Below are positions 190-15,530 of a DNA stretch of 26,018 nt, in pieces (positions within the stretch are counted from its first letter, which is position 1; each line of letters opens with the position of its first letter). A model generated the notes under the pieces. The model did no database searches. It was not told the origin of the DNA and saw only the letters and a list, made by a program, of their open reading frames with translations. This DNA is from a virus: the IMG/VR virus record IMGVR_UViG_3300022591_000061, positions 1 to 26,018 of that record, one strand, 5' to 3'. The translations under genes and the position numbers were made by a program.

Positions 190-1269
190 ATGTTTACATT
201 CAAAGAACTCAAACAAATCCATTTGGAAATCACCAACAATTGCCAGTCCAGTTGTCCTATGTGCAGCCGAAATATACACGGCGGTATAGACAATCCTTTA
301 TTAATGTTAAATTCGTGGTCTCTGGATATGTTTAAAACTATAATGACTCCTGCGGTCTTAGCGCAATTAGAAAGCTATTACTTCTGCGGTAACTTTGGCG
401 ATCCATTACTTAACAATGATCTTATAGCTATGTGCGAGTACTCCACTGGTGTAGCACCTAACACAGGAATACGCATACATACCAATGGTAGTTTACGTTC
501 AAATGATTGGTGGCGGCGACTTGCGCAGGTATTGCCTAAGAACCATCTCGTAATATTTGCGTTAGACGGATTAGCTGATACTCACAGTTTTTATAGAGTT
601 GGTACAGACTATAACCAAATATTACGCAACGCCAAAACATTTATTGATGCTGGCGGACGAGCTGAATGGGCATTTATTAGATTTAAACATAACGAACATC
701 AAATTGAAGAAGCACGAGCTCTTGCTACTAAGATGAAATTTGAAAAGTTTGTTATGAAAGACAGTTCTAGATTTTTGTTAGACAAACAATATGCTGTTTA
801 TAATAAGTACAATCAAATAACTCATCATCTTGAACCGTCGGTATATAGTGAAATTAAGTTTATAGATAGAAAAACAATTAGCAATTATAAATCAATTGTA
901 GCCAATGCAGAAATACGTTGTCAAGCACTAGATTCAAAAGAAGTTTATATTGATGCGTTTGGGCGACTGTTCCCTTGTTGTTATCTAGCAATGATTCCTT
1001 ATGTGCCGCTAGATATAGAATTTGAAATCACTGCTATCAGAACTGAAATACTAAAAGAATACAGAGCATTGGTTCAAGACTTAGGCGGGAGTGATGCCAT
1101 TGATGCTACAAAATACTCAGTCAAAGATATAATTAATTCTCAACCATATCAAACTGTGTGGCACAAATACTGGAATGAAGAAAAATTAATTACTTGTACT
1201 AGAAGTTGTGGTATTACTACAGATTTTTCTAATCCAAGAGATCAGTTTACCAGTGACGAATCACTATAA
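190..1269 (+). CDS. Radical SAM protein with C-terminal auxiliary-cluster cysteines (family A)
   Basis: This 359-residue radical SAM enzyme would bind a [4Fe-4S] cluster and cleave S-adenosylmethionine to form a radical; its substrate is unknown. The CxxxCxxC cluster motif is CQSSCPMC (C18, C22, C25). It is followed by a GNFGDPLL segment (about 68-74) where many relatives have GGEP, by HTNGS (97-101), and by ALDGL (124-128). The C-terminal half has C244, a CC pair at 263-264 after a DAFGRLFP segment, and C336/C340, which resembles a SPASM/twitch domain binding extra Fe-S. I chose the ATG at 190 because the upstream TTG at 145 would add 15 unconserved residues across the divergent promoter. 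It is a clear paralogue of the gene at 10421-11512, sharing FKHNEHQ and the overall motif order. Its last 23 bases overlap the convergent gene. Confidence 0.88.
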   Translation: MFTFKELKQIHLEITNNCQSSCPMCSRNIHGGIDNPLLMLNSWSLDMFKTIMTPAVLAQLESYYFCGNFGDPLLNNDLIAMCEYSTGVAPNTGIRIHTNGSLRSNDWWRRLAQVLPKNHLVIFALDGLADTHSFYRVGTDYNQILRNAKTFIDAGGRAEWAFIRFKHNEHQIEEARALATKMKFEKFVMKDSSRFLLDKQYAVYNKYNQITHHLEPSVYSEIKFIDRKTISNYKSIVANAEIRCQALDSKEVYIDAFGRLFPCCYLAMIPYVPLDIEFEITAIRTEILKEYRALVQDLGGSDAIDATKYSVKDIINSQPYQTVWHKYWNEEKLITCTRSCGITTDFSNPRDQFTSDESL

Positions 1270-1912
1270 AATCTTTGGCAGGTAATTCACCAAGACCATC
1301 AATTACACCAGGATTTACCTTGAAGGTAACTTCTGTGTCGTTATAAGCAAAGTCTTTTATATGTCCATTTTTATTTGCACGATTCAACCACGGACTATAA
1401 ATTTTATCAAATACAAATCTAGCGTTATGTGTGTCAGGCATAGGTATAATAATGCTAACAGGATTGTCAAATGTTCCCGGCAGTAATAACTGCCTGACTA
1501 CTAACTGTATCCTGTCAGTTTCACCAAAATTTGCGGCACTATGTAAACGTCCAGCATTCATAGTGTACCAAACGCCTAAATCTGTTTCAAACATTTTGTG
1601 TGATTCTAGATCAATTAAAAATGCTTGTTCATTGACCAACGACACATGCCAGCGGTCGTCTATGTCAGCATGTACCCAATAATTAGTCCCGGGCGCAAGT
1701 TTAATTAATCGTGCTTCACCTATAGGTCCTGGTAGCGTGTTTAGAATTTCTTCCCAAACGGTATTTTCAAATTCTGGTTTAATTTGCCACGGGTCGTAAA
1801 AGAAATTGCCGGTTGGTTTATTCAGTGCTAACTTAAAATCAAATTTGGGCAAAAATTCCTGTGCCATTTTGAGTTGATTAACAGTGAGTGCGGTCTGAAT
1901 TTGGTTGATCAT
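1247..1912 (-). CDS. Aspartyl/asparaginyl beta-hydroxylase-like 2OG-Fe(II) oxygenase
   Basis: This protein of about 221 residues has the pattern of the aspartyl/asparaginyl beta-hydroxylase family of double-stranded beta-helix oxygenases. These enzymes use Fe(II), O2 and 2-oxoglutarate to hydroxylate protein side chains or small molecules. The proposed metal ligands are HAD (H81, D83) followed by DRWH, and H124 in GRLHSAANFG. R134 or R140 is the likely 2-oxoglutarate-binding arginine. The start is uncertain. The ATG at 1912 lies only 4 bases beyond a TATAAATA element, so a transcript from that promoter would begin at the ATG itself. An in-frame ATG at 1867 (MAQEFLP) is the alternative and would still keep all motifs. 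It is one of four oxygenase-like genes in the window and is encoded alone. Confidence 0.75.
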   Translation of the reverse strand: MINQIQTALTVNQLKMAQEFLPKFDFKLALNKPTGNFFYDPWQIKPEFENTVWEEILNTLPGPIGEARLIKLAPGTNYWVHADIDDRWHVSLVNEQAFLIDLESHKMFETDLGVWYTMNAGRLHSAANFGETDRIQLVVRQLLLPGTFDNPVSIIIPMPDTHNARFVFDKIYSPWLNRANKNGHIKDFAYNDTEVTFKVNPGVIDGLGELPAKDFIVIRHW

Positions 1913-1916
1913 AAAC

Positions 1917-1924
1917 TATTTATA
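1917..1924 (-). promoter_or_regulatory. Late promoter octamer almost abutting the oxygenase ATG
   Basis: The minus strand has a perfect TATAAATA, followed by GTTT and then the ATG at 1912. T4-type late transcripts start about 6 bases after this octamer, so the message would be leaderless or would use the internal ATG at 1867. Confidence 0.6.
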
Positions 1925-1950
1925 TGTTACTATTATGTATTAAAAAGTTA

Positions 1951-2808
1951 ATGAACAGAATAAAAATTGCACCCTCTTATGATGCTACGTGGTTAGAGAC
2001 CGAACGTCCGCAACCGTTGTCTGACCTGGTAATTGAAGAACTTATACAAGAGTTACTTCCGCATCAATGGGGATATGAGATTACTGATAATCTATATACG
2101 CAGTTTAAGTCTGAAATGTCTGCTTGGTTGTTTAATAGTCAACTTAATCAAGTCTCTGGATTTGATACATTTGATCGCGTAGATATTATCAATGGTTGCA
2201 CTCAATTTATTGATACTGTCTATATGAAAGGTCCTGTGCAGACATTAAAGGGCGATTATAGATACCATAATAGATTAAATCCTAATCTGGTGTATAGTGT
2301 TCCTGGCTACTTGCGTAAAGGACTACCGCTAATTATAGCCATGCCTTTTCCTAGTACTGGAGATGTTCATACAGAAATGACGGAGATATTAAATGAATGC
2401 TTGGAATTGGCAATCCCTGTTCACATTGACGGGGCTTGGCTCACTTGTTCTCGGGATATTGTTTTCAATGTTGGGCATAGTGCTATTCGCAGTTGTGGTA
2501 TCAGTCTTAGTAAAGGTCTAGGCTTAGGCTGGAATAGGATAGGCTTGCGTTGGACTCGAGACACGGATACTGATGCTGTTACTGTAATGAACGAATTCAA
2601 TATGAATCTAAGAGCTCCGGTGATGATTGGACTACATTTTTTAAGAAACTTGCCGCCCGATTACTTATGGAATACTTACGGTCATTTATATTATAAAATT
2701 TGCCAGGACTTTGATTTGGCGCCAACTAAAAGCATTTATCTTGCTATGCGTAACGGACAACCGGTGGGAGTTAGTCCGCTAATAAGGTATTTACATGAAT
2801 CTGGTTAA
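1951..2808 (+). CDS. PLP-dependent aminotransferase-like protein (fold type I), short
   Basis: This 285-residue protein has hallmarks of fold-type-I PLP enzymes. LIIAMPFPSTGDVH is in the place of the usual NP-x-x-P-TG loop. PVHIDGAW holds the aspartate that contacts the pyridine nitrogen (D160). SLSKG (K188) holds the candidate Schiff-base lysine, followed by GWNRIGLRW with R196. The motif order and the D-to-K spacing of 28 are right for aminotransferases. At 285 residues it is shorter than the usual 380-450, mainly after the lysine, so part of the C-terminal small domain seems missing or replaced. I prefer the ATG at 1951; an ATG at 1924 would add nine residues (MLLLCIKKL) and lies within the divergent promoter. 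It is the first gene of a four-gene plus operon and overlaps the next by 14 bases, which suggests a coupled pathway. The amino acceptor is unknown. Confidence 0.7.
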   Translation: MNRIKIAPSYDATWLETERPQPLSDLVIEELIQELLPHQWGYEITDNLYTQFKSEMSAWLFNSQLNQVSGFDTFDRVDIINGCTQFIDTVYMKGPVQTLKGDYRYHNRLNPNLVYSVPGYLRKGLPLIIAMPFPSTGDVHTEMTEILNECLELAIPVHIDGAWLTCSRDIVFNVGHSAIRSCGISLSKGLGLGWNRIGLRWTRDTDTDAVTVMNEFNMNLRAPVMIGLHFLRNLPPDYLWNTYGHLYYKICQDFDLAPTKSIYLAMRNGQPVGVSPLIRYLHESG

Positions 2809-3532
2809 CGTAGATGGTATAAATATCCCATACGATTTAACTTGGCAGAATATTGCTGTCAGTATTAGCGGTGGCGCCGACAGCGCACTATTGGCATTTT
2901 TATTATGTGACATAATTGACAGCAACCAATTGGCAACTACTGTACATGTTATTAATCACACTCGTATGTGGAAAACTCGCCCATGGCAAAGATATGATAG
3001 CCAACAAGTAACCAATTGGCTAATCAGTAAGTTTCCTAATATTAAATTTGAGCATCATAATAATTTTATAGCACCCGATGTAGAGTATGGCAATATGGGT
3101 CCCACAATTACAGATGAGTATGGAAGAATGGTCAGCGGCGATAATGCACAACAACGTGCCTATGCAGAATACGTATGCTACTACAACGGTATAGATGCTT
3201 ATTATAATGCAGTCACTCATAATCCTAGAGGCATTGATTTAGGTGGCATGGTAGAACGAGACATTGAACGCAACAATACTAATGGACATTTAGAGTTTAT
3301 GATACACATGGATAGAGTTGCTAGCCATCCGTTTCGTTTTGTAGAAAAGTCCTGGATAGTTAAACAATACATTCGACTAGGTATTACAGACTTACTTGAT
3401 ATTACACGCAGTTGCGAAGGCGAGTTTGCAGATATAGATTATACAAATTATACTCCAGGGCAGTACGTAGGCACGTGCGGCACATGTTTTTGGTGTAAAG
3501 AAAGAGAGTGGGCAATTGAACAATCAAAGTAA
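2795..3532 (+). CDS. QueC-like PP-loop ATP pyrophosphatase
   Basis: This 245-residue protein has an N-terminal PP-loop, SISGGADS (S25-S30). That motif marks N-type ATP pyrophosphatases, which adenylate a carbonyl or carboxyl group before attack by a nucleophile. The C-terminus has C207 in DITRSCEG followed by C228, C231 and C234 (CGTCFWC), matching the zinc-binding cysteine pattern of QueC, 7-cyano-7-deazaguanine synthase. The HPFRFVEKSWIVK segment also fits the QueC family. QueC makes preQ0 from 7-carboxy-7-deazaguanine and ammonia, and phages use preQ0 for DNA modification. However, no QueD, QueE or FolE partner is visible here, so a related ATP-dependent amidation or ligation is equally possible. 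It overlaps the aminotransferase-like gene by 14 bases and the following radical SAM gene by 17 bases. Confidence 0.72.
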   Translation: MNLVNVDGINIPYDLTWQNIAVSISGGADSALLAFLLCDIIDSNQLATTVHVINHTRMWKTRPWQRYDSQQVTNWLISKFPNIKFEHHNNFIAPDVEYGNMGPTITDEYGRMVSGDNAQQRAYAEYVCYYNGIDAYYNAVTHNPRGIDLGGMVERDIERNNTNGHLEFMIHMDRVASHPFRFVEKSWIVKQYIRLGITDLLDITRSCEGEFADIDYTNYTPGQYVGTCGTCFWCKEREWAIEQSK

Positions 3533-4778
3533 AACATTTTGTATACATCCTTTTACAGGATTAGCAACTAGAGAAGACGGCGCTATATGTGCTTGCTGTC
3601 GTAGCCATCCCATTGGCTTTATTGACAAAGAACGACTGGAAGATATTTGGAACAACGATACAATGAAGCGTATCCGCCAACAGGTATTAAATGATGAACG
3701 TCCACCCGAGTGCGAGCCATGTTTTAGCCTAGAAGACCAAGGTGTTGAAAGTTTACGTATGCGTCATATTGCTGGCAAGATTCCCGAAGCACGTATTAAC
3801 TTGTATCCTACAGCATTAGATAACTTAGCAGATGATTATTCGATGCCGTTTGAAATTCCTACCATGGAATTAAAACTCAATAACTTGTGTAACTTAAAAT
3901 GCCGTATGTGCCACCCAATGGATAGCACCAGCTGGAATGACTGGAGCGAGATTAAAGAGTTTTATCAGCGTGAAGGTAATATCATGTACGATATTGTTGC
4001 TGAACACGATTTAGAAAATACACCAACATTAGACAAGTTTCAAGACAGTCCTGAATGGTGGGCTAGTTTGGAAAAGTTACTTCCACACTTTAGACGTGTA
4101 GAATTTGCCGGCGGTGAGCCCTTGATGGATCCACAACACTATCGTATATTAGATATGCTTGCCCCATATGGCGATCAAATTGAAATCAAGTACGCAACTA
4201 ACCTGAGTATGTTAGGTAAAGGTAAGCGTACCGTTTGGGAATACTGGCCCAAGTTTAAATCTGTTGCTGTTAATGTTAGTATTGATGGCATTGGTGATAG
4301 TTACAAATACATACGTGGTAATGCTGATTGGAATATTCTATTAGATAATATTCAACAAATACAAACTATACCCAATATCAGTCGTATTGTTGGCGCTGTC
4401 ACTGTACAAGTAAGTAACATATTAATCTTAGATCAAATGATTGAACTATTTTTAGATCAGTTAGGTATTGTATTCCATACCCATCGTGTAGCTTATCCTA
4501 ATGTATTAAGTGTACAAGTGCTACCACGTAAATTAAAAGAATTGGCTGTTAAAAGATTAATTAATATCGAAAAACGCTTGAAATCATTTAAGATGATCCA
4601 ACTACATCCAGAGCTGTTGGAATACACACGTGGGCAAATACAGGACAACATTAACTATCTAATATCCAAAGATCAAAGCCGATTGTGGTCTGATTGTATA
4701 GAGTTTAATCGTAGACTGGATGCTACCCGCAATCAAAGTTTCTTAGATGTGACTCCTGAATTTAAAGATCATGTATAA
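3516..4778 (+). CDS. Twitch domain-containing radical SAM protein (first of three)
   Basis: This 420-residue protein belongs to the 'twitch domain-containing radical SAM protein' type. Its auxiliary Fe-S cysteines precede the radical SAM barrel: FCIHPF (C9), ICACC (C25, C27, C28) and CEPC (C66, C69). The radical SAM motif CNLKCRMC (C125, C129, C132) follows, then AGGEPL and VSIDG. Its substrate is unknown. The start is TTG at 3516: no ATG or GTG is available between the in-frame stop at 3468 and this codon, and starting later would remove the conserved FCIHPF segment. A purine-rich AAAGAAAGAGAG run lies upstream. It overlaps the PP-loop gene by 17 bases and the next radical SAM gene by 8 bases, so the four genes at 1951-5697 are probably translated together. 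Confidence 0.85.
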   Translation: MNNQSKTFCIHPFTGLATREDGAICACCRSHPIGFIDKERLEDIWNNDTMKRIRQQVLNDERPPECEPCFSLEDQGVESLRMRHIAGKIPEARINLYPTALDNLADDYSMPFEIPTMELKLNNLCNLKCRMCHPMDSTSWNDWSEIKEFYQREGNIMYDIVAEHDLENTPTLDKFQDSPEWWASLEKLLPHFRRVEFAGGEPLMDPQHYRILDMLAPYGDQIEIKYATNLSMLGKGKRTVWEYWPKFKSVAVNVSIDGIGDSYKYIRGNADWNILLDNIQQIQTIPNISRIVGAVTVQVSNILILDQMIELFLDQLGIVFHTHRVAYPNVLSVQVLPRKLKELAVKRLINIEKRLKSFKMIQLHPELLEYTRGQIQDNINYLISKDQSRLWSDCIEFNRRLDATRNQSFLDVTPEFKDHV

Positions 4779-5697
4779 AGTAACAAGTCGCTGGCCGCAT
4801 CAAGATTCAATCAAAGTAGAATGGAACTTAGGAAAGCGTTGCAACTACGACTGTAGCTACTGCCCGGCGGTTATACATGATAACACTAGCGAACACACAG
4901 ACATTGATACATTAAAAGGTGCAGTTAATCAATTACTCAAAATAGGTAAACCTATACGTCTTAGTTTTACCGGTGGGGAGCCTTGCATACATCCACAGTT
5001 TGCAGAATTAATCAGTTATGCTAAAAATCAAGGAATCGGCTGGATCAGCGTAACAACCAATGGCACACGTCAACACGATTGGTATAAAGAGCAACGTGTG
5101 GATCAATATGTGTTTAGCCTACACTTTGAACATGACTGGCGCAGGGCATTAAACACTATAACTACCTTGTTTCAAACTGTAGAACAATATAACATACCAA
5201 CAAACATTATGGTCAATGTTATGGCACACCATAATCATATGCGTAAAGTCAAATTTGCTGTTGGAAAATTACAACACGATCAAGTACCATATGTTATACG
5301 TAGAATACGCTGGACCGAGGATGATCATAATGTGTTTGACGATTTACGTTATAATTTAAACGACTTAGAATGGATTACAGAACGTGAAGCTACTGTCAAA
5401 GCTAATTGCGTTATAAACGATAATCCTGTTAAAATGTATCATGCTAACGATATTATTAAGTTACATATGAATGAGTATAAGGGGTGGACCTGTGCGGCTG
5501 GCATTGAAAGTTTAATGGTCAACTGGGACGGTGATGTACATCGTGCTACTTGTCGTGTGGGTGGCAGTTTAGGTAATATCTATACGGGTACGTTTACTAT
5601 TCCCGCAGAACCCATTACTTGTACCCGCGATAATTGTACCTGCGCTGCTGATATACCACTTACAAAATATGCGCCAGCTCCGGGAATGTTGCCTTAA
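4771..5697 (+). CDS. SPASM-type radical SAM protein (family F)
   Basis: This 308-residue radical SAM enzyme has the motif CNYDCSYC (C24, C28, C31), FTGGEP (67-71) and TTNGT. A cysteine-rich C-terminus holds C241 in WTCAAG, C261 in RATCRVGG followed by LGNI, and C284, C289 and C291 (CTRDNCTC). This is the SPASM-like layout that carries extra Fe-S clusters, common in peptide- and protein-modifying radical SAM enzymes and in some sugar-modifying ones. It is a paralogue of the minus-strand gene at 12077-13039, which has matching cysteine positions. It is the last gene of the four-gene operon. The ATG overlaps the previous stop by 8 bases, and its 3' end overlaps the convergent gene by 38 bases. 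Confidence 0.85.
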   Translation: MYKVTSRWPHQDSIKVEWNLGKRCNYDCSYCPAVIHDNTSEHTDIDTLKGAVNQLLKIGKPIRLSFTGGEPCIHPQFAELISYAKNQGIGWISVTTNGTRQHDWYKEQRVDQYVFSLHFEHDWRRALNTITTLFQTVEQYNIPTNIMVNVMAHHNHMRKVKFAVGKLQHDQVPYVIRRIRWTEDDHNVFDDLRYNLNDLEWITEREATVKANCVINDNPVKMYHANDIIKLHMNEYKGWTCAAGIESLMVNWDGDVHRATCRVGGSLGNIYTGTFTIPAEPITCTRDNCTCAADIPLTKYAPAPGMLP

Positions 5698-7081
5698 AGT
5701 TTGTGCCGCGCTGTGCATCCATTGTGGTAATATAATCTTTAAAGTCTGGCAACAAATTAGTATGGTCTTCGGCATCCATCCAATCTAGTATGCCCTCCCA
5801 CCGTTTCCATCCGTAAGGATTAACTTCCCAAAATTCTTTGTCGTGTGTATAGTTTGTCCAGAGCCAGTCTTTTAGTTCAGCAAATAGATTTCGCACTTCT
5901 AACTTATCTTCTGCCGGCAATACACGTAGACTTAGCCAGGTTGGGATCCATAATAAATGTACCCCCACCAATCCTCCGCCCATAGTCTGTCCGCTAGCGT
6001 TAGTATCAAAGTTAATCTTTTTAAAGTTACTCTTAACTTTCCATTTAATGAAGTCTGGAACGTGTTTAATGTTTAGTATCTGTACTGCAAATGCTATATT
6101 AGTTTGTATGTTGTCCGGTGCTCGATCGAGTAAGTGTAAATTCTGCTCGACAGTTCCCCAATCTAAAGGGTAGCGTATGTAATGGCCACGTTCTTCCATG
6201 CCGTCTAGACTAAAACCAACTTTGACTTTACGGAACTTGCTCCACAAATCAATTATGTTTTCACTAATAAGTGTACCGTTAGTATTGTAACGTAATGTAA
6301 TCTTGTCTGCGTACCCACGTTCTACTATTTCTTCTAAGAAACGCCGATGTTCTTTAATTAGTAAAGGCTCTCCACCAGCAAAGTATAATTGTTTAATGTT
6401 AGGAATTTGATCAAATACTTCTTGCCAGAATTTAGGATTTTCGTGCCACACGTTATTAAAATCTTTTGAGTCCCAATTCATTTGTTTTTGAATTAGCGGG
6501 CTTTGGAATAACGGATATACTTTTTTATACTCAGGTACCCACATACTGCTGTCATGCGGACTACACATGATACACTTTAAATTACAAGTATGCCCTAAAC
6601 GTAAATCTAGGTACTGTAATTTATAAGGGATACTACCATCTTCTTTTGTTTGCTTAATAAGTTCTGGAATATCGATACCTTCTTGTAAATGCCAAGTTCC
6701 TGTTTCCCAAATACGTTTACTGGCAATGCCCTGTTGTTCTTCTTTAAAACATTTAGTACAACTGGCCGGTATTTCCCCAGCTAGCATTGTTCTACGAACC
6801 GATTTCATGTAATCGTTATTAAATGCTTCGGTAGGTAAATCGTGAGCAAAGTTAGCAGGCGTACCATCTTCCATCTTAACTAATCCTACAGTATAATCGC
6901 CGGACTCTGCACCACTTGCATTTGCTACACAACAGATACGCATGTCACCATTTGGGCGTGTTGCTAAATGTATCCAAGGTAGTACACAAAAGCTAGGACT
7001 ACCCGATATGTCCGCTAATTGTTGTTGCCACTTACCTAATTGTGTTTCTTCTGGTTGTAACCAAAATACTTTATTTGTCAT
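5660..7081 (-). CDS. Twitch domain-containing radical SAM protein (second of three)
   Basis: This 473-residue relative of the protein at 3516-4778 has the same architecture. N-terminal auxiliary-cluster cysteines are FCVLPW (C32), RICC (C50, C51) and CTKC (C108, C111). The radical SAM CNLKCIMC (C166, C170, C173), AGGEPLL (about 235-241), NTNGT and FSLDGM follow. The C-terminus ends in a conserved PDFKDYI...RGTNFKATFPEL region, also seen in the gene at 14091-15530 as RRGTNFAETFPEM. This conserved tail probably marks the complete family length. It shares an ATGA overlap with the upstream sulfotransferase-like gene, so the two should be co-translated. The two proteins may act on the same substrate. 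Confidence 0.88.
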   Translation of the reverse strand: MTNKVFWLQPEETQLGKWQQQLADISGSPSFCVLPWIHLATRPNGDMRICCVANASGAESGDYTVGLVKMEDGTPANFAHDLPTEAFNNDYMKSVRRTMLAGEIPASCTKCFKEEQQGIASKRIWETGTWHLQEGIDIPELIKQTKEDGSIPYKLQYLDLRLGHTCNLKCIMCSPHDSSMWVPEYKKVYPLFQSPLIQKQMNWDSKDFNNVWHENPKFWQEVFDQIPNIKQLYFAGGEPLLIKEHRRFLEEIVERGYADKITLRYNTNGTLISENIIDLWSKFRKVKVGFSLDGMEERGHYIRYPLDWGTVEQNLHLLDRAPDNIQTNIAFAVQILNIKHVPDFIKWKVKSNFKKINFDTNASGQTMGGGLVGVHLLWIPTWLSLRVLPAEDKLEVRNLFAELKDWLWTNYTHDKEFWEVNPYGWKRWEGILDWMDAEDHTNLLPDFKDYITTMDAQRGTNFKATFPELAHIL

Positions 7082-7710
7082 ATTGAATTTACTATTTGAG
7101 TTATTATATACTCATCTGGTATCCAAGTCAATACTTCTTCTAAATTAGTAACTGAATCCCAACTTGTAGTCATCCCCATTTTCATTAATGTGTCGTCCGG
7201 AGTCCAAGTCCATCCAAATTTAGATCCTATACTAGACCAGTCCTGGATTAGGGTATCAAAGTCTATACGCATTACTTGCCCAAACCCAAGGGCATCTGCA
7301 TTGCGATCAATTATACGTTGCCAACAGCGATAATACCAGTATGATGACATAAAAGAATCTTGTTCAAAATGTAAGCTGTCCGCTATGTAGTCTTTTCCTG
7401 GGTGCCATTTATTTGTAGCATTGAGAGCATTAATACTTAACAACCAACTAGCAAAGTCATTTCTAGTTAATATGATCAAGCACCATTCTTTAGGATCAAT
7501 AGCACTTAATATATTAGATATGTGGAATGGGTTAAAATTAGTAAATACCGCAGACTCTGCACGGTTAAATTGATCCCATTCTTCACTAGAATACTGTCCG
7601 CGATCAACAGCTGCTACAGTCAAACTGGTTTCCAGTAAGCTACGCTCAATATAGTTAAAAAAACTAGTACTGGCAGTTCTGCCCGGGGTGCTGATTAAAA
7701 ACTTCTTCAT
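7078..7710 (-). CDS. Sulfotransferase-like protein
   Basis: This 210-residue protein begins with a short beta strand and a loop, STPGRTASTSFFNY (7-20). It resembles the 5'-phosphosulfate-binding loop of PAPS-dependent sulfotransferases, which often reads PRTGST. IILTRNDFASWLLS (79-92, with R83 and S88) resembles the 3'-phosphate-binding segment. Such enzymes move a sulfate from PAPS to a sugar, lipid or protein hydroxyl. I rate the family as likely but not certain, since P-loop kinases share part of this pattern. The gene starts a two-gene minus operon and overlaps the twitch radical SAM gene by 4 bases. It diverges from the oxygenase gene at 7751 across 40 bases. A TATATAAT string directly abuts its ATG, too close to serve as its own promoter in the usual way. 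Confidence 0.65.
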   Translation of the reverse strand: MKKFLISTPGRTASTSFFNYIERSLLETSLTVAAVDRGQYSSEEWDQFNRAESAVFTNFNPFHISNILSAIDPKEWCLIILTRNDFASWLLSINALNATNKWHPGKDYIADSLHFEQDSFMSSYWYYRCWQRIIDRNADALGFGQVMRIDFDTLIQDWSSIGSKFGWTWTPDDTLMKMGMTTSWDSVTNLEEVLTWIPDEYIITQIVNSI

Positions 7711-7737
7711 ATTATATAATTAGCAGTAAACCCTATA

Positions 7738-7745
7738 CATAAATA
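7738..7745 (+). promoter_or_regulatory. Late-promoter-like octamer exactly 5 bases before the ATG
   Basis: CATAAATA matches the T4 late element at seven of eight bases. It is followed by TTTTT and then the ATG at 7751. With normal late-promoter spacing, transcription would begin at the A of the ATG. No Shine-Dalgarno sequence is present. Confidence 0.5.
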
Positions 7746-7750
7746 TTTTT

Positions 7751-8275
7751 ATGACCACTAAATTTATCAAAAATAACACAGAATGGGTCAATCAAGACTT
7801 GCTTACCAAAATAATAAACGGTACTGGAGAGCAACGTCCATTAATTGACGAACACGACGAGCCGTGGAAACGAGACCAATGGCAACGATGGCTCAACAGT
7901 GGCTATGATATGAAAGGTGTTAGCTGGAATATGTTCTACTGGCATCACTTAGGAATGAGCTCTTCAGAAGATTTGGTATTGCCAATTGATATCAAAGCAG
8001 ATCGTGTTGAATGGTGGTTTAGCAGGATCAATCCTTGTTGCGTATTTCCCATGCACGTAGATGCCTTTAAAACAGAATGTAAAAACTTTCGCCGCTTTAG
8101 TGTGCCTATGCAGGACTATGTTGATGGGCATATCTTTGTATACGAAGGTAAAAATTTAGAAGGATACAAAGCCGGAGATATATTTGAATTTGAGGATCCA
8201 AGAGCCTGGCACGGTGCTGGCAATATTAGTATGATTCCAAAAGTTAGTTTTCAGTTTGTTTGTTACGATTTATGA
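7751..8275 (+). CDS. Small 2OG-Fe(II) oxygenase-like protein
   Basis: This 174-residue protein looks like a compact double-stranded beta-helix oxygenase of the aspartyl/asparaginyl hydroxylase group. MHVDAF supplies H102 and D104 as metal ligands, and PRAWHGAGN supplies H154. Between them, YKAGDIFEF is the usual strand before the distal histidine. The expected 2-oxoglutarate-binding arginine near the C-terminus appears to be a lysine (K164 in IPKVSFQF), which may alter co-substrate binding. It is the first of five plus-strand genes at 7751-11512 and shares an ATGA overlap with the next oxygenase-like gene. The substrate is unknown. The protein contains a CC pair at 96-97, of no known role. 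Confidence 0.65.
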   Translation: MTTKFIKNNTEWVNQDLLTKIINGTGEQRPLIDEHDEPWKRDQWQRWLNSGYDMKGVSWNMFYWHHLGMSSSEDLVLPIDIKADRVEWWFSRINPCCVFPMHVDAFKTECKNFRRFSVPMQDYVDGHIFVYEGKNLEGYKAGDIFEFEDPRAWHGAGNISMIPKVSFQFVCYDL

Positions 8276-9051
8276 TACGCGGAATTAACAATCAGCCGTA
8301 CTTAAACTTAGATCCTTACTTTGATATAGAAGGACTTAAACTTTTACACAATAAGATATGTAAGGGAATTGTACTATCCAAACATAAAAAAGAAGGCAAC
8401 ATAGTCGAGCCTGGTGGATTTAACAACGCATACGAGTTATCGTTTAAGCCCTTATTCAAAGCTGTACAAGAATACGAAGCACTAAACGAAGATCATGAAA
8501 TTAAAGTATTAGGTAGAGAAATTGGTGAGTGGAAAAATCGTGATCAGTTTGTTTTGTTTCTTAAACTTGTGCTGGGTGCGTACGATCCTTATCAGTTTAT
8601 ATTCATTAAAACAGAAGATGGCGGGTGGGAAAATAGATTTGAAGAAAAAGCATGGACCAAGGATGCTGAATTATTTCCAGAGTTACGTATTTGGTTAGAA
8701 CAATTAGTACCTACTGTGTTTACACATCTTGGCCGTATAATAATTTTTAAAGCAGAACACGATTGTATAATGCCAATGCACAGAGATTTAATTCTGCCAG
8801 AGGAAATTGAATATTCCAATCATAGACACGAGTTCATACATTTACGTACAAGTTTAGATAAACCATTTTACATGTGGGATTCAGAAACAGATACAAAAAT
8901 ATTAACTGATAGTCATGCAACATTCTTCAATGATCAAGACTGGCATGCCGGCGGTCGTACAAATAAACAAACATACAGTATACGTGTTGACGGAATCTTT
9001 GCAGAAGAATTTAGACAACGCATTGGTATAAGTCACCTGGAACATTATTAA
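8272..9051 (+). CDS. 2OG-Fe(II) oxygenase-like protein
   Basis: This 259-residue protein has the oxygenase facial triad pattern. MHRD gives H170 and D172. DQDWHAGG gives H225 as the distal histidine. SIRVD gives R238 as the likely 2-oxoglutarate-binding arginine. An RTSLDKPFYMWD segment lies between them, as in aspartyl/asparaginyl hydroxylase-like proteins. About 150 residues of unassigned N-terminal sequence precede the catalytic domain and could bind the substrate. I chose the ATG at 8272, which overlaps the preceding stop as ATGA; a TTG four codons upstream is less likely. Translation coupling to the oxygenase before it suggests that the two act on the same target. One base separates it from the next gene. 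Confidence 0.7.
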   Translation: MIRGINNQPYLNLDPYFDIEGLKLLHNKICKGIVLSKHKKEGNIVEPGGFNNAYELSFKPLFKAVQEYEALNEDHEIKVLGREIGEWKNRDQFVLFLKLVLGAYDPYQFIFIKTEDGGWENRFEEKAWTKDAELFPELRIWLEQLVPTVFTHLGRIIIFKAEHDCIMPMHRDLILPEEIEYSNHRHEFIHLRTSLDKPFYMWDSETDTKILTDSHATFFNDQDWHAGGRTNKQTYSIRVDGIFAEEFRQRIGISHLEHY

Positions 9052-9052
9052 T

Positions 9053-9772
9053 ATGGAATGGGATTATTACTATAATTTAGAAGGTGGTGAGCAAGTTCGT
9101 GCTAACTTGGTTTATACTCCATATGTAAGTGTTGATAAAAAAACATTCTGCATGAGTTTTAACAGAGACCCAGGGTATCATTCAGATAGTGACGAAAATG
9201 CACAATGGAACGATGACTTGTTAACGGAAAGATTTAATCGCGAACTTGAATTTTATTTCCGTGCTGGCAAAACTATGCCTACGTTAAAAATCATTGACTT
9301 AGACATACGGGCTAGAAAAATCTACTTAGAGTGGCATGGCGATGATTTTTATATGCAAGGCTACATGAATGGCGGATTTGGTCGTGTACTCCCAGACTGG
9401 CAAGAACAGTGGTTAACCAGAATGGAACAAATGTGGAATGCTGGTATTGTAAAAATGAGTTTGCATCCGAACAGTTGGGTGTCTAAAGACGGAGTACTAG
9501 TACCATTCAATTGGTTCTTTAGTTATTGCGACTCCGAACAAGTTGTTATACGTGATGTTCTGCAACAAATTAGCCCAGGTCGTCAAGAAAAGTTAAGTAA
9601 AGTATTATCTTCTGCTGGCATGGATGTAGATACTCCTTATAATGCCAAATATCTACAGCGTATTACCTTTGACAGCTTTAGATCAAACTATCCTGCAGAT
9701 TTAATAGATCGAGCATTAAAATTACAGTTAGGAGATCACAATGTCCATAGCATTCTTACCGATAACTATTGA
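9053..9772 (+). CDS. Unrecognised protein within the oxygenase operon
   Basis: I do not recognise this 239-residue acidic protein with confidence. It is rich in Tyr, Trp and Asp and has no signal peptide or membrane segment. Two stretches faintly recall a degenerate kinase or phosphotransferase fold. One is an RFNRELEFYF segment followed by LKIIDLD. The other is KMSLHPNSWVSKDG followed by a hydrophobic PFNWFF, in the place where the catalytic loop and metal-binding segment would fall. The key catalytic aspartates are not convincing, so an enzyme call would be speculation. It lies one base after one oxygenase-like gene and overlaps the next by 32 bases, so it probably works with them, perhaps as a substrate-binding partner. 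Confidence 0.7.
   Translation: MEWDYYYNLEGGEQVRANLVYTPYVSVDKKTFCMSFNRDPGYHSDSDENAQWNDDLLTERFNRELEFYFRAGKTMPTLKIIDLDIRARKIYLEWHGDDFYMQGYMNGGFGRVLPDWQEQWLTRMEQMWNAGIVKMSLHPNSWVSKDGVLVPFNWFFSYCDSEQVVIRDVLQQISPGRQEKLSKVLSSAGMDVDTPYNAKYLQRITFDSFRSNYPADLIDRALKLQLGDHNVHSILTDNY
9730..9735 (+). promoter_or_regulatory. Strong ribosome binding site inside the preceding gene
   Basis: AGGAGA lies 5 bases before the ATG at 9741. This fixes the start of the next gene despite its 32-base overlap with the previous one. It is the clearest Shine-Dalgarno sequence I found in the accessory half. Confidence 0.65.
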
Positions 9773-10424
9773 TGTAAGACTTCCCAACGAAGAACTCTTA
9801 CTTGAATTTTGCAAGCAATATAAAATAAGAACAACTGCAAAAGACGGGCATAGTTCTTGGTGGGACTTTACTCCTGTGCTCATGCGAGCCACAGAAGAAG
9901 AAGTTTATGATGCTAACAAGTTAAAAGACATATTGGCCAATAGATATAATGCCGGCTTAGGTACTCCTAGATATCTAAATAACATTGATAAATTGTTTCC
10001 AGAAATTCCGTATATGCTTGAACAATTACCGTATAAGGAATTAACACTGGTTACCATAATGAAACAGATGAAGCCAGTTGATTATCATACCGATACTAAC
10101 GACTTTGACATACATTTAGATCCCACAGAAGTAGCATACGAACTAGAACCAAAACGCTATAACATATTACTAAACAAACATGAATACCAAGATTGTTTAT
10201 TTGTTGCAGATCAAATAGGCGGTACTAAAATATATCCCCGTATACCAAAAGAACGTCCATGCCATGTTATACCAGATCGAGTACACGCACACGGTGCTGA
10301 CTATTGCGGCCCTGATAAATTGATGCTATGTGTTATTGGCGGCATACTAGACAGAGAACTACATCAAACAATGATTCAAGACAGTCTAACAAAATATTCC
10401 AGCGAGGCTATAATATTCTCATGA
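9741..10424 (+). CDS. 2OG-Fe(II) oxygenase-like protein, divergent
   Basis: This 227-residue protein probably has the same oxygenase fold as the other members of the operon. DYHTDTNDFDIH gives H116 and D118 as candidate metal ligands. A RYNILLNKHEY segment follows, as in aspartyl/asparaginyl hydroxylases. DRVHAHGAD gives H182 or H184 as the distal ligand. Where the 2-oxoglutarate-binding arginine is expected (DKLMLCVIGG) there is only a lysine, so activity or co-substrate use may differ. The start is fixed by a strong Shine-Dalgarno AGGAGA. Its stop overlaps the ATG of the following radical SAM gene as ATGA, which suggests oxygenation and radical chemistry on one target. Confidence 0.6.
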   Translation: MSIAFLPITIDVRLPNEELLLEFCKQYKIRTTAKDGHSSWWDFTPVLMRATEEEVYDANKLKDILANRYNAGLGTPRYLNNIDKLFPEIPYMLEQLPYKELTLVTIMKQMKPVDYHTDTNDFDIHLDPTEVAYELEPKRYNILLNKHEYQDCLFVADQIGGTKIYPRIPKERPCHVIPDRVHAHGADYCGPDKLMLCVIGGILDRELHQTMIQDSLTKYSSEAIIFS

Positions 10425-11512
10425 CATTTTATAAAAACATTGTAGATATGGAAATTGAAAACAGCTCGCTGTGTAATGCTGCATGCCCTGCTTGTGCCCG
10501 AGAGCAAACGCCTGGAGATTATTCTTGGCTAACAGAAAAATATTTGAGTATTGATTTTTTTGATCGTATTCCTACTGGCGTATTACTAGGATTAAACAAA
10601 TTACTGTTTACTGGCACCATTGGAGATCCATGCACAGCTCCTAATTTAGTTGAAGTTATAAAAAGCATTAGACAACGTGCCCCTAACTTGTTTATATCCA
10701 TATCAACCAACGGTGGAATGAAATCATCAGGATGGTGGGCCAGTTTGGCTCGAGCACTTGGTCCTAATAGCGAAGTAACCTTTGCCATAGATGGACTAGA
10801 AGATACCAACGACATATATCGTGTAAATGTGCGGTGGAATAAGATTATAGCAAATACCAGTACATTTATTGCTGCCGGCGGGCAAGCACGTTGGCAATAT
10901 ATTGTTTTTAAACACAACGAACATCAAGTTAATCAAGCTAGGCAATTAGCCAATGACATGGGATTTAAATCTTTTGTAATGCGACCGAGCCATAGATTTA
11001 AAGTAGATGAATTTTTGGGCATCGATGGACGCTTTGGTAGAGATGGTATTCAAATTTTGCCACCTACTAATCCACAATTTGTACACAAAGTAATGATAGT
11101 GAAAAAAGAGGATTATGTCAGACCCGGGTCTGACATATGGTACTCCACGTCAAACGATACTAAAATAAATTGCTATGTAAAAGAAGCTGGATCAATATAC
11201 ATAGACTATCAGGGACGTATACTACCTTGCTGTTTTTTATCTGGCGGAGTATTTGTACGACGTAATGCGAAATATCCTGACGGGTGGGATTCAATTTGGA
11301 ATCAGTACGGCAATGACTTGGTTAACTTACACAACTACACGTGGGAAGAAATTATTAACTCAGAATTCTTTAAACAAATAGAAGCAAGCTGGACCAAGAG
11401 TTATAAAGATGGTAGACTGTTAACCTGTGCTGGAACTTGTAGTGAGTTTAAGGGTAGACTAAACAACCCTGAAGAGTTTTGTAACGAAGAAACTACGCAC
11501 TTTGACCAATAA
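10421..11512 (+). CDS. Radical SAM protein (family A paralogue)
   Basis: This 363-residue radical SAM protein is closely related to the one at 190-1269. CNAACPAC gives C18, C22 and C25 at identical positions. It shares the GTIGDP segment, STNGG, FAIDGL, the FKHNEHQ motif, and a C-terminal auxiliary region with INCYVKEA, a LPCC pair and LLTCAGTC. The preserved spacing means both copies should bind the same Fe-S clusters, while the variable C-terminal 100 residues may set different substrates. The ATG at 10421 overlaps the preceding stop by 4 bases; the reading frame extends upstream but those codons lie inside the oxygenase-like gene. It ends the five-gene operon and its tail overlaps the convergent methyltransferase-like gene by 20 bases. 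Confidence 0.87.
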   Translation: MTFYKNIVDMEIENSSLCNAACPACAREQTPGDYSWLTEKYLSIDFFDRIPTGVLLGLNKLLFTGTIGDPCTAPNLVEVIKSIRQRAPNLFISISTNGGMKSSGWWASLARALGPNSEVTFAIDGLEDTNDIYRVNVRWNKIIANTSTFIAAGGQARWQYIVFKHNEHQVNQARQLANDMGFKSFVMRPSHRFKVDEFLGIDGRFGRDGIQILPPTNPQFVHKVMIVKKEDYVRPGSDIWYSTSNDTKINCYVKEAGSIYIDYQGRILPCCFLSGGVFVRRNAKYPDGWDSIWNQYGNDLVNLHNYTWEEIINSEFFKQIEASWTKSYKDGRLLTCAGTCSEFKGRLNNPEEFCNEETTHFDQ

Positions 11513-12086
11513 TCATATATCTGGTATAGAGTTCAGTTGGTAGTTCGCCAACTGATAAAATATCAAGATGACTTTGTTCTATAAAATGATTTAAACTATT
11601 AGCAGGACGTATATGCTCGTCAACTAAAAAGTTATTACTTTGCAATACAATAAGACTATTAGCCGGCATACCCGATAGCCATAGATCGTAGTTGTCTTGG
11701 CTAATGTGCTCGCAACTGGTATTGATAATAACATCAGCACCGCTTCTGTAAGTTGTCATATCATGTGTGATAGCGCGAAAACGCCCTTGTATTTCTTCTG
11801 GCTTATTCATCATGGTAGCAACAGCTTCGCAACCGGGATCAATGTCTATACTTAATATCTGTGTAATAGGTATACCGCTTTGAAATAACATACTAGCTAA
11901 CACACCGGCCCATCCGCCGTGTATTTCAATTGAGACAGGATTTGTAATTTCTGACTGTAAATTTTCTATTAGCCACTCTTTACTACGAATCTGTCCTGCC
12001 CAGAAAGCATCTAGTGTACGAATAGGGTTAGGACTTTGGCGTATGGCCTGCATCCAGAAGTGTAAGTGATCAGTATCTATTTGCAT
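11493..12086 (-). CDS. Class I SAM-dependent methyltransferase-like protein
   Basis: This 197-residue protein fits a Rossmann-fold methyltransferase. IEIHGGWAG (53-61) is in the place of the SAM-binding glycine loop. ILSIDIDPGC (77-86) has the acidic end of strand 2 that usually binds the ribose. ADVIINTSCEHI corresponds to strand 4, often NPP- or NTS-like. It would transfer a methyl group from SAM to an unknown acceptor. The glycine loop is unusual (HGGWAG instead of GxGxG), so catalytic activity is likely but not assured. It overlaps the upstream radical SAM gene by 10 bases and forms a two-gene minus operon with it. Confidence 0.65.
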   Translation of the reverse strand: MQIDTDHLHFWMQAIRQSPNPIRTLDAFWAGQIRSKEWLIENLQSEITNPVSIEIHGGWAGVLASMLFQSGIPITQILSIDIDPGCEAVATMMNKPEEIQGRFRAITHDMTTYRSGADVIINTSCEHISQDNYDLWLSGMPANSLIVLQSNNFLVDEHIRPANSLNHFIEQSHLDILSVGELPTELYTRYMIIGQSA

Positions 12087-13039
12087 TTTGGTATTTTACT
12101 ATCTGCTGAGCTAACGCAACTTGGTGTTCCGCATATTTGTGGGCTAGTAAACAATTCAAAATTATCTATTGTGCCAAGTGGATAATCGTAACAACTGTAT
12201 CCGCGTTTAACTTCTGTTCCTCTTATTATAACACTTTGATATCCACTATTGCAACGCCACCGCGCAAATTGATTGAAACCAAAACTATTAAAGCGTTCGG
12301 CTTGATCTAAATAGTAGTCTTGCTTGCCATCTGTCAGACGGATTTGATAAATTGGTTGCGTATCAACTTGATATCCAAAATCTTCCTGCATAGCCTTAAA
12401 CATGTCTTTGGTGTAGCCGTCAACAATAAAACTAGCGGTAGGATCGCTTTGTGGTTTGAGTGTTACATTAATACCGCGTTTTTTTAATCTAGCACAGCGA
12501 TCGTATGTTGCCCAAAAATCATCTGGCACCATAACTTGATTTACAGTTACATAGACTCCTTCAGATTGTAACAACAAACACCTGTCAGCAAAATCGTTTT
12601 CAGTGGCAAACTCAGCATGAAAACTAGCAGTTATGCTCCTGCGTTGTAATAAACCAGTGTGTTCCAACCACGTTTTCCACCACTTCTGACCCGGTGATAG
12701 ATTAGTAGTCATATGTACACTTTGATAAGGTGTTTGTTCGCCGTCATCAAGGTATTTTATTAAGTCCAAAAAGTTTTTGTATGCGGTAGGCTCTCCGCCA
12801 CTGAAACTCCAATGGAACCGAGTAAATCCGTTACGTCTGGCTTGACGTTTGATTTCATCTATGGCACGGATGTAAACTTCAAGAGGCTGATGATCGGGTT
12901 CGCTGGATCTAGCGTAGGGCCAGCAATAGCTACAATTATAATTACAAAAACGACCTAATATCCAACTAACGGAAAAAAGATCCATGTCTAGCATAGTCTG
13001 CTGTCCAAAACGAGTAATATTTTGCCATGGGATTGTCAT
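12077..13039 (-). CDS. SPASM-type radical SAM protein (family F paralogue)
   Basis: This 320-residue radical SAM enzyme has CNYNCSYC (C32, C36, C39), SFSGGEPT and HMTTN. Its C-terminal auxiliary cysteines are C263 in RCNSG, C283 in RGYSCYDY followed by LGTID, and C303, C308 and C319. The order and spacing match the gene at 4771-5697 (C241, C261, C284, C289), so the two are paralogues on opposite strands. The family most often acts on peptides, proteins or sugars; the substrate here is unknown. It heads a two-gene minus operon with the methyltransferase-like gene. A GTTAAATA element ends exactly 5 bases before its ATG, and no Shine-Dalgarno sequence is visible. Confidence 0.85.
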   Translation of the reverse strand: MTIPWQNITRFGQQTMLDMDLFSVSWILGRFCNYNCSYCWPYARSSEPDHQPLEVYIRAIDEIKRQARRNGFTRFHWSFSGGEPTAYKNFLDLIKYLDDGEQTPYQSVHMTTNLSPGQKWWKTWLEHTGLLQRRSITASFHAEFATENDFADRCLLLQSEGVYVTVNQVMVPDDFWATYDRCARLKKRGINVTLKPQSDPTASFIVDGYTKDMFKAMQEDFGYQVDTQPIYQIRLTDGKQDYYLDQAERFNSFGFNQFARWRCNSGYQSVIIRGTEVKRGYSCYDYPLGTIDNFELFTSPQICGTPSCVSSADSKIPKCK

Positions 13040-13044
13040 CTATA

Positions 13045-13052
13045 TATTTAAC
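13045..13052 (-). promoter_or_regulatory. TAAATA-type promoter element 5 bases before the ATG
   Basis: The minus strand has GTTAAATA, matching the late octamer at six of eight bases, then TATAG and the ATG at 13039. It lies back to back with a similar plus-strand element at 13054-13061. In AT-rich sequence such matches can occur by chance. Confidence 0.35.
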
Positions 13053-13053
13053 T

Positions 13054-13061
13054 ACTAAATA
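13054..13061 (+). promoter_or_regulatory. TAAATA-type promoter element before the plus-strand gene
   Basis: ACTAAATA matches the late octamer at six of eight bases. Its normal start site, 6 bases downstream, is the A of an in-frame ATG at 13067. This favours 13067 over 13061 as the true start. Confidence 0.3.
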
Positions 13062-13900
13062 TGAGTATGAAACAGTTTCTATTAGAGAAAATCAATAATT
13101 TTACTCAAGTTGCAGTCGAAGAATTTCAACAAGAAATAGTCGGACCGTTACCAAAATTTACGATACCCAGTGTCTACGATGAGAGTACAACTATCTGGGG
13201 ACAAAATGAACACGGCTTTTGGTATACTAATAAAGTACAAGGATACTTTTTTGAAAACAATGGTACCATACATACTGCCGGTGTTGTATTAAGTCCCTGG
13301 TACTATCAAATTTATAAAGATTTACATACCAATCAAAATGGATATAACGTATTAACTCCTGTATTAACCAACAGAGAAGTATCCACAAGTGAACATATAG
13401 ATCACATACAATACATACAATTTCAAACTCCTAATAGGGTATATGGCAAAAACTTAGAGTTTGTAAGAGTTACAAATCTCACAGAAGAAATACCATTATA
13501 CCTACAAGACTACATAGATCAACTAGGAGCAGTTTACTTGACTTTACACCGCCTTGGAAAAGGCCTATTACCTGTTTGCAACTTTTTTAATTTTTCTATA
13601 GGTGTAGGACAAAACTATTTTATGTTCTTTGAAAATTTTGAAACAGTCTACAACTATCAAGACGGAGTTAATAAAATGTTGATAACGTTAAATGATAGAT
13701 TAGACAAGCACCTATTTAAAAACATCACAGATGAAAATAGAGTACGTATTATTAGATACGCTAAAAATCGGTGGATGCGTCCAGTATTAGAAGATGCTTT
13801 ATCTGCAACACTAGATAACCTAGGTGAATTAGTAACAAATAAAAATAAAAATGATATTATAGGATATGCTAAAGAATTATGTCTACCATCAACGATCTAA
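13061..13900 (+). CDS. Unrecognised protein, first of two
   Basis: I do not recognise this 279-residue protein. It is rich in aromatic residues and Asn, with no signal peptide or membrane segment. It has no cysteine-cluster, nucleotide-binding or metal-binding motif I can trust. The region LGAVYLTLHRLGKG followed by a hydrophobic NYFMFFENFE weakly recalls the catalytic region of small-molecule kinases, but the essential residues are not clear. The start may be 13061 or the in-frame ATG at 13067. It is followed by a small gene overlapping by 22 bases. The pair stands alone on the plus strand between two minus operons of radical SAM genes, so it may supply a partner or a substrate to them. Confidence 0.7.
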   Translation: MSMKQFLLEKINNFTQVAVEEFQQEIVGPLPKFTIPSVYDESTTIWGQNEHGFWYTNKVQGYFFENNGTIHTAGVVLSPWYYQIYKDLHTNQNGYNVLTPVLTNREVSTSEHIDHIQYIQFQTPNRVYGKNLEFVRVTNLTEEIPLYLQDYIDQLGAVYLTLHRLGKGLLPVCNFFNFSIGVGQNYFMFFENFETVYNYQDGVNKMLITLNDRLDKHLFKNITDENRVRIIRYAKNRWMRPVLEDALSATLDNLGELVTNKNKNDIIGYAKELCLPSTI

Positions 13901-14085
13901 ACTGTACCTTTGTTTACTATACAGAAAAAACTGCTAAGATAGCACGAATACCGGTTAATTCATTGATGCCAAATCCAGTGACAGTAATAAATCAGTACTG
14001 GGACGATGGCGAACAAACATATTACACAGATGTAGGTGTGGAGTATGATGGACAAACTATTTTAAAATACAGCCTAAGAGACTAG
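13879..14085 (+). CDS. Small unrecognised protein, 68 residues
   Basis: This small acidic protein starts MSTINDLNC and is rich in Tyr and Asp. It overlaps the previous gene by 22 bases and stops 5 bases before the end of the convergent radical SAM gene. This tight packing supports it as real. It has one cysteine and no repeats, Gly-Gly leader or core-like tail of the kind seen in ribosomally made peptide precursors. I cannot assign a function. Confidence 0.6.
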   Translation: MSTINDLNCTFVYYTEKTAKIARIPVNSLMPNPVTVINQYWDDGEQTYYTDVGVEYDGQTILKYSLRD

Positions 14086-14090
14086 AGAAC

Positions 14091-15530
14091 TTAAATTTCT
14101 AATGTAAGTTTCTTACATTCGTTATAAAAATCCATCATTTCTGGAAATGTTTCTGCAAAGTTTGTACCACGTCTGCGATCGTGCTCGTCGCAAAATGCTA
14201 CAAAATCTTTTAGTAGAATTGGATCTGTTTTATCATTAAACAAGTATTGTATCCTATCTAACTTATTAACTTCGTCTGGAATAAATCCATCTTTGGAATT
14301 TGCTTTCATAAATTCCAATTGTTTTTGTATTTCATTTCTGTATGTTGTCGGTAGTATGCCAACGTTCATCCAATTTGGATAATTGAGATACGGAATATCA
14401 ATCATCACTATTCTCTGATCGTTATTAAATGTTCTTTTTAAATTTAATACGTCTTGTAAAAAATCAGTGTACGAAGTAACAGAAAATGCATTATACGTCG
14501 ACATGATACAAAAATACGCTGTAGGTATTTCTTTTAATAACTTAACACAATTTTCTAACCATTTGTTATAATCAAGTCCGTGTCGGATGTATTCTGCTTT
14601 AGCACCGTGAGCTTCGCAACTGGTGTATAATGTAAATGATCTAACAGCACGGGTGTCCTCAATGATTTTAATTTTTGCAATAAACTCATCAAACAATGCA
14701 TCAGGGACTACACAGTTCGAATTAATCGCCAATTCTATTTTAGGATTAGGATTTGCAATAATATAGTCTAGTACTTTAAAAGTGTGTTTACTCAGTAACG
14801 GTTCTCCGCCGGTGATACGAAACGTATATAATGATGGATATAGATCTGGCCACCATTTCCAAAAAGCATCGGTATACGGATTATCATCCTTTTCTGGAAT
14901 AGGCATTTTGTCTTGCATCTTAACCCAGTCCAAATTATTATAGTTTAGCGAGGTTGGGTATGGGCCTTGTTGTTTAATTTCTTCCATCCATTTGCTACTT
15001 ACTTCAGGATTGCAATAACTGCACTTAAAGTTACACACATTTGAAAAACTAACTTCAAGATAACTTGGATTGATATTTTTTTCTGCCCCAGCATCCATTA
15101 CTTCACTAAAATGGGGTAATGCCCATGGCTCTGAACTTTTTAATGTTCTATCACTAAAAACTATTACTTGTTCTGGTGCGCTATCCTCAACGTTCCAACA
15201 GTAGTGACACTCGCTTGGTCTGCCACCAGTTAACATTTCTTGTCTGGCACATTTTTTTATGCTAGTGTTGTGTAGTGCGCTAGGATCCACTGCTATTTCA
15301 TCTAGTGGTATTTTATGTGTTTTAGGGTGATGACAACTGTGGGTGTGCCCGGTACCTAAATGTAATGTAACTTGTTTCCATTTAGCTAAACACATACCCG
15401 GACCGATGCTATTAAGTTTCTTAAGTACGTTGTTTTTATTTACATTTTGTAACACGTAAATTACCTCTTTCCAATTTCTTACCCCTATTAAAAATCTGAG
15501 TGCTCGATTAATTTGCCATTTGATATTCAT
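14091..15530 (-). CDS. Twitch domain-containing radical SAM protein (third of three)
   Basis: This 479-residue protein has the radical SAM motif CNFKCSYC (C166, C170, C173), at the same residue numbers as the gene at 5660-7081. ITGGEPLL and an altered substrate loop (INSNC in the place of TNGT) follow. The N-terminal auxiliary cysteines are C47, C66, C94, C108 and C111; the CC pair of the other two members is reduced to one cysteine in HSCHHP, with histidines beside it. The last cluster may therefore have changed ligands. The C-terminal RRGTNFAETFPEM region is shared with the other long member. It is the last gene of a seven-gene minus operon and overlaps the glycosyltransferase-like gene upstream by 23 bases, which links it to glycan chemistry. 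Confidence 0.87.
   Translation of the reverse strand: MNIKWQINRALRFLIGVRNWKEVIYVLQNVNKNNVLKKLNSIGPGMCLAKWKQVTLHLGTGHTHSCHHPKTHKIPLDEIAVDPSALHNTSIKKCARQEMLTGGRPSECHYCWNVEDSAPEQVIVFSDRTLKSSEPWALPHFSEVMDAGAEKNINPSYLEVSFSNVCNFKCSYCNPEVSSKWMEEIKQQGPYPTSLNYNNLDWVKMQDKMPIPEKDDNPYTDAFWKWWPDLYPSLYTFRITGGEPLLSKHTFKVLDYIIANPNPKIELAINSNCVVPDALFDEFIAKIKIIEDTRAVRSFTLYTSCEAHGAKAEYIRHGLDYNKWLENCVKLLKEIPTAYFCIMSTYNAFSVTSYTDFLQDVLNLKRTFNNDQRIVMIDIPYLNYPNWMNVGILPTTYRNEIQKQLEFMKANSKDGFIPDEVNKLDRIQYLFNDKTDPILLKDFVAFCDEHDRRRGTNFAETFPEMMDFYNECKKLTLEI

Follow-up and report, generated by a model that had tools for sequence, protein, structure and literature searches.

A 26,018-bp viral fragment from IMG/VR (IMGVR_UViG_3300022591_000061; hereafter the window, meaning the whole stretch) encodes seven radical S-adenosylmethionine (rSAM) proteins between positions 190 and 15,530, and a preliminary description, made from the letters alone, had proposed that they serve a dedicated chemical programme. 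Comparison with related viral contigs has revealed that six of the seven belong to orthologous families of old origin, which recur together with a methyltransferase, a pyridoxal phosphate (PLP) enzyme, a QueC-like PP-loop ATPase and partners resembling 2-oxoglutarate (2OG) oxygenases. That this unit and its fixed partners have been kept across many distinct phage loci supports the proposal. The reading that we prefer, to which we assign a probability of roughly one in three, is that the seven proteins act in a cytosolic tailoring pathway encoded where large T4-like phages keep their host-recognition genes, and that this pathway would make or attach an unusual glycan-like decoration, most likely on the tail fibre. 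Phages with many rSAM genes were earlier seen as curiosities; here, one set emerges as a fixed pathway whose members can be named and which occurs in at least several hundred contigs of uncultured viruses.

Identity and ancestry of the radical SAM proteins

Each of the seven open reading frames (ORFs), which are designated by their start positions (190, 3516, 4771, 5660, 10421, 12077 and 14091), contains a single CxxxCxxC motif. Five of them passed Pfam or NCBIfam cut-offs, with PF04055 scores of 43.9 bits for 4771, 47.4 for 12077, 30.2 for 3516, 47.3 for 5660 and 29.6 for 14091. The scores of 190 and 10421 are below the PF04055 cut-off (26.4 and 23.4 bits, respectively), and these two proteins match the ‘radical SAM’ family phrog_21308 (1.7e-22 and 2e-19) and fall in a clade of rSAM proteins in the tree. 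Motif and profile matches thus confirm all seven as predicted rSAM enzymes, as had been claimed, the evidence being weaker but clear for these two. Their starts are in-frame ATGs within slightly longer ORFs (145 and 10328).

The seven had been sorted into three families, of which the twitch trio stands: 3516, 5660 and 14091 score 324.6, 402.9 and 340 bits against NF033640 (N_Twi_rSAM, NCBIfam; curated cut-off 170 bits), and the other four proteins are far under that cut-off. The library label of NF033640 is a subfamily name without a function. The identity between 4771 and 12077, in contrast, is only 21%, so that this pair is better split, and that between 190 and 10421 is 32%. Nor does the SPASM profile bear out the SPASM-like label of the former pair: it has no match in 4771 or 12077, although both have additional conserved Cys residues. 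It exceeds its cut-off of 21.5 bits in 10421 (22.9 bits) and at the N terminus of 3516, and stays below it in 190 (16.8 bits). Judged by sequence, the proteins divide more aptly into two A genes (copy 1, 190-1269, with CQSSCPMC and an extra set of Cys residues at the C terminus, and copy 2, 10421-11512, both on the plus strand), two F families (F1, 4771-5697, plus strand; F2, 12077-13039, minus strand) and three twitch families (T1, 5660-7081, minus strand; T2, 3516-4778, plus strand; T3, 14091-15530, minus strand). The CxxxCxxC motif is invariant in the F1, F2, A and T1 alignments, and the mean column identity of the F2 alignment is 62%.

Expansion by duplication or repeated capture, which had been suggested for these genes, is unsupported for most of them. 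The best orthologues in other phages are 86% (5660), 80% (3516), 72% (12077), 66% (4771), 64% (190), 62% (14091) and 55% (10421) identical to the window proteins, whereas sister rSAM proteins inside the window share 21-32% identity, which rules out local duplication for most members. A tree of 184 rSAM proteins agrees, in that F2, T3 and R16 each form a well-supported separate group, although support is low in places, including the T1/T2 part.

Recurrence of the gene set and its partners

Relatives in viral contigs numbered 99 with 5660 as the query, 381 with 190 and at least 587 with the methyltransferase gene (MT, 11493-12086, minus strand); among 50,697 annotated phage records, neither F2 nor MT had any match. 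All 45 related contigs longer than 30 kb hold 4-15 PF04055 matches, and the set is far beyond chance. Of 21 related contigs tested, four have a gene for a Gp23-type capsid protein, those of 353, 270 and 169 kb among them, so that the carriers are large T4-like phages. One relative, IMGVR_UViG_3300022592_000375 (18,245 bp; loci L008 and L088), matches the window at 99-100% identity in two query genes and is apparently a separate assembly of the same phage.

ORFs were called in all loci, redundancy was removed and the proteins were clustered. The set recurs across the resulting 97 non-redundant IMG/VR loci, with family A in 95, MT as a single copy in 86, Ox1247 (1247-1912, minus strand), one per locus, in 69 and the conserved protein U9053 (9053-9772, plus strand) in 54. 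Of these loci, 52 span 18 kb or more; in them, A and T2 are found in 52, F1 and Ox1247 in 49, T1 in 48, MT and F2 in 45, the PLP gene and U9053 in 38 and the QueC-like gene in 35, the median being 7.5 rSAM genes per locus. As the 97 loci had been found by rSAM baits, the count was repeated with MT, a non-rSAM bait. The 23 long MT-baited loci, a few contigs of which overlap the rSAM-baited set, contain A (22), F2 (21), T1 (19), F1 (16) and T2 (16), with a mean of 6.2 rSAM genes. Since the unit is conserved with fixed partners across phage loci, its members are not genes that each occur alone among unrelated neighbours.

The order of the genes is kept within two stretches, PLP-QueC-T2-F1 and F2-(A)-MT-(A)-T1-R6, to which the window conforms. 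The rSAM genes had been described as scattered among separate operons, which is true for this window, but the layout (PLP-QueC-T2-F1; F2-MT-A-T1) is a conserved one. T3 is outside this core, being present in 12 of the 97 loci, and is part of the run of tail-fibre and glycosyltransferase genes, not of the core island. Between F2 and T3, window positions 13061-13900 encode a 279-aa protein that has hardly any relatives among the fetched loci.

Among the partner enzymes, MT is predicted to have the fold of class I SAM methyltransferases, as its AF2 model (predicted local distance difference test score, pLDDT, 94.9) aligns with methyltransferases at Z scores of up to 17.8. A function like that of nicotianamine synthase, at rank 2 in Foldseek, was rejected, as no such chain appeared among the 50 matches of a second alignment. 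The PLP protein (1924-2808, plus strand; SLSKGLGLGWNRIG), probably a fold-type-I PLP enzyme, has an SLSK-type lysine motif, and its Bdellovibrionota homologue matches Aminotran_1_2 (PF00155) marginally, just under the cut-off (0.0022). In the place of the NPTG typical of class I/II aminotransferases it has MPFPSTG, and a W replaces the usual Tyr after D-x-A, both being leads only. The QueC-like protein (2795-3532, plus strand) retains in the alignment the PP-loop (SGGADS) and four invariant Cys residues near the C terminus. Profile searches of the PDB with MT, the PLP protein and the QueC-like protein gave no match. A weak Pfam match (0.019) suggests that Ox1247 is related to 2OG-Fe(II) or aspartyl/asparaginyl hydroxylases, and the motif HxD...H, with no profile match, that Ox7751 (7751-8275) and Ox8260 (8260-9051), both on the plus strand, are oxygenase-like; the rare Ox9741 (9741-10424, plus strand) was so named from its motif, HTD...H. 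In a simple hydropathy scan, the core proteins have almost no membrane segments, and the core genes are tightly packed, with a median gap of -8 bp between the 870 adjacent pairs, of which two are separated by at least 70 bp and none by 150 bp or more. Related islands also include genes for a fatty-acid desaturase (PF00487), a sulfotransferase (PF03567) and a GDSL-like acylhydrolase-type protein (L129:4459-5235, L012:13293-13910, L136:12061-12690).

Tail-fibre linkage and proposed function

In the window, a single-strand run leads from tail-fibre genes (25613 to 20061) to two GT82-type glycosyltransferase genes, two of GT14 type and finally T3, the distances between genes ranging from -26 to 64 bp. 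Its upstream part, on the minus strand like the rest, consists of three fibre or structural genes (20061, 21916 and 23619, together 20061-25613), of which 23619 matches a tail-fibre PHROG at 1.6e-17. A small conserved protein (19386-19736), whose look-alikes in four contigs agree with it in size and position, lies between the fibre and the glycosyltransferase genes. The latter encode two GT82-type proteins (18472-19389 and 17639-18475), the second of which is GT8-like, was named from its motif LDSDMLFLKP only and matches phrog_1903 (unknown function), and then a long (16208-17110) and a short (15508-16218) GT14-like form. Similarly, in contigs G027, G029, G030 and G041 the order fibre-GT82-GT82-GT14-(T3/T1)-GT14-F2-MT-A is found on one strand, with gene ends mostly overlapping. 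Gp23 is present on G029 and G030, and absent from the window fragment itself. By fibre adjacency and Gp23, the island beside the tail fibres of these Gp23-bearing phages is a T4-like host-recognition region. The GT14-like proteins have a DGDN/DADN motif; the model of the long form (pLDDT 90.4) gave weak GT-A-type matches, nearly all top structure matches being nucleotide-sugar enzymes, and a PDB profile search returned one insignificant match only (E 0.18).

The MT fold, the PLP, QueC-like and GT14 evidence, the tight packing and the near absence of membrane segments together fit a cytosolic tailoring pathway that acts on a small building block or a cytosolic protein. We infer that F2, A, T1, F1 and T2, with the methyltransferase, the PLP enzyme, the QueC-like protein as an ATP-using ligase and the hydroxylases, would build an unusual sugar- or amino-acid-like group. 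The glycosyltransferases encoded just after the tail-fibre genes, with accessory rSAM proteins such as T3, would attach or finish this group on the adhesin, that is, the tail fibre, and the decoration might tune adsorption and host recognition. Because of the co-directional gene runs, the tail fibre appears to be the best candidate acceptor, host surface glycans being the main alternative (PMC7029224).

Several observations weigh against decoration of the fibre. GT14 is immediately upstream of F2 in 15 of 79 cases, and other lineages have unrelated genes there, so that the fibre linkage is limited to a subset. The fold match of GT14 is weak (E about 1e-3, TM about 0.3), a nucleotide-sugar pyrophosphorylase (PF00483) is absent from ten large contigs, and the Bdellovibrionota clusters described below have no phage fibre in view.

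Alternatively, the glycosyltransferases and rSAM enzymes might remodel the host envelope during infection, altering the O-chain or surface glycans and thereby blocking superinfection, which is possible, if somewhat unlikely. The glycosyltransferases of pelagimyophage host-recognition clusters were read in this way by the authors of that study (PMC7029224), and the acylhydrolase-like, sulfotransferase and desaturase genes of related islands, as well as the fact that the F2-T1-A(-GT14) core is native to Gram-negative Bdellovibrionota, are consistent with it. However, the near absence of membrane segments from the core proteins argues against envelope remodelling, neither a flippase nor a polymerase was noticed in the gene maps, and in a subset the genes continue from the tail-fibre genes rather than standing alone.

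The QueC-like enzyme inside the island suggests instead a modified nucleobase, such as a relative of 7-deazaguanine, for phage DNA or tRNA. Of 10 large virus contigs, 6 have a QueD-family gene outside the island, F1 has weak QueE-like matches, and CP220, an rSAM-bearing phage, has canonical QueC and QueD. Such a product is nevertheless quite unlikely: the island protein meets the QueC cut-off in one virus contig only, canonical QueC was not found elsewhere in those virus contigs, QueE models score far under their cut-off, and the glycosyltransferases and the tail-fibre linkage would be left unexplained.

That the genes are auxiliary metabolic genes aiding the host's metabolism under low oxygen, a role put forward for the Campylobacter phages CP220 and CPt10 (PMC2853527), is improbable. 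The islands also encode several oxygenase-like proteins whose named relatives require O2, and no known host pathway enzyme was matched over a curated cut-off. Still less probable is a system for ribosomally synthesized and post-translationally modified peptides (RiPPs), with rSAM maturases acting on a small phage-made peptide: SPASM and twitch rSAM enzymes often modify peptides and there are many weak matches to RiPP maturase models, but none of these models was matched over its cut-off, and the gaps given above leave no site in the core for a separate precursor gene, none having been found in the intergenic space of the 870 gene pairs.

Bdellovibrionota counterpart and known phages

A smaller core of F2, T1, A and often a glycosyltransferase, three to four genes in all, resides in the chromosomes of the predatory Bdellovibrionota. 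F2 relatives, with 45-52% identity, were found in 16 of 241 sampled genomes of this phylum, a sample that includes genomes known beforehand to carry F2. They are accompanied by T1 and A, often by GT14 and sometimes by MT and PLP, amid non-phage genes, and Gp23 was not found in the Bdellovibrionota genomes tested. T1 of the window is 43-49% identical to proteins of Bdellovibrionota and of marine metagenome-assembled genomes (MAGs). In the F2 tree, 35 IMG/VR phage sequences lie on one side and the Bdellovibrionota and marine-MAG sequences on the other (support 100/100), so that the split between the two sides is old, without giving a direction of transfer.

Dense rSAM clusters also occur on contigs of marine bacterial MAGs (L184-L186, L188, L191). 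Three of the marine-MAG F2 matches, however, share their contig with Gp23 (G055:C28, G057:C1, G059:C3); they were rejected as bacterial, and because of Gp23 these contigs are best read as those of phages mis-binned into bacterial genomes.

It is conceivable, though doubtful, that a single undescribed decoration, made by radical chemistry, is common to phage tail fibres and to an envelope component or appendage of Bdellovibrionota, and that it is built by a common F2-T1-A-glycosyltransferase core, which T4-like phages would have extended to a pathway of about ten genes. A literature search on links between Bdellovibrio and rSAM enzymes or glycosyltransferases returned nothing relevant. The set provides defined enzymes to test, and Bdellovibrionota are a possible route to the product outside the phage. 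A protein with a prepilin-like N terminus adjoins the family A gene in two related Bdellovibrionota genomes (L183:14135-15769, L189:13793-15814); as it was seen beside A in these two only, it was rejected as a general feature and kept as a lead.

T4-like phages with multiple rSAM proteins were already known. The Campylobacter phages CP220 and CPt10 have 11-12 of them, five in an exchangeable cluster (PMC2853527). The CP220 cluster resembles the present island in that it adjoins two genes with nucleoside diphosphate (NDP)-sugar-transferase domains, and a tail fibre is encoded some 10 kb downstream. In contrast, the CP220 rSAM proteins are only about 21% identical to the window A protein, and they pair with an amidinotransferase. 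The host recognition cluster of pelagimyophages is a hypervariable T4-like island with tail fibres, GT8 glycosyltransferases and rSAM cassettes, and freshwater SAR11 phages have no rSAM, according to the same authors (PMC7029224). There, the rSAM genes are mentioned as optional cassettes, whereas here they form a near-fixed set with partners in many loci. The 183-kb genome of a T4-like marine virus, TARA_ERS488813_N000010, has 12 rSAM genes; where that report deals with them, they are treated under Fe-S metabolism with no gene families named, and the likeness is by description only (PMC5332604). As far as the searched papers show, what is new is the definition of a set of families conserved together with their partners, the breadth of its distribution and the core present in Bdellovibrionota. 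Among the genes that flank the islands in related contigs, some resemble by eye those of the translation initiation factor IF-1 (L107:1007-1228) and of ThyX (L117:3908-4579).

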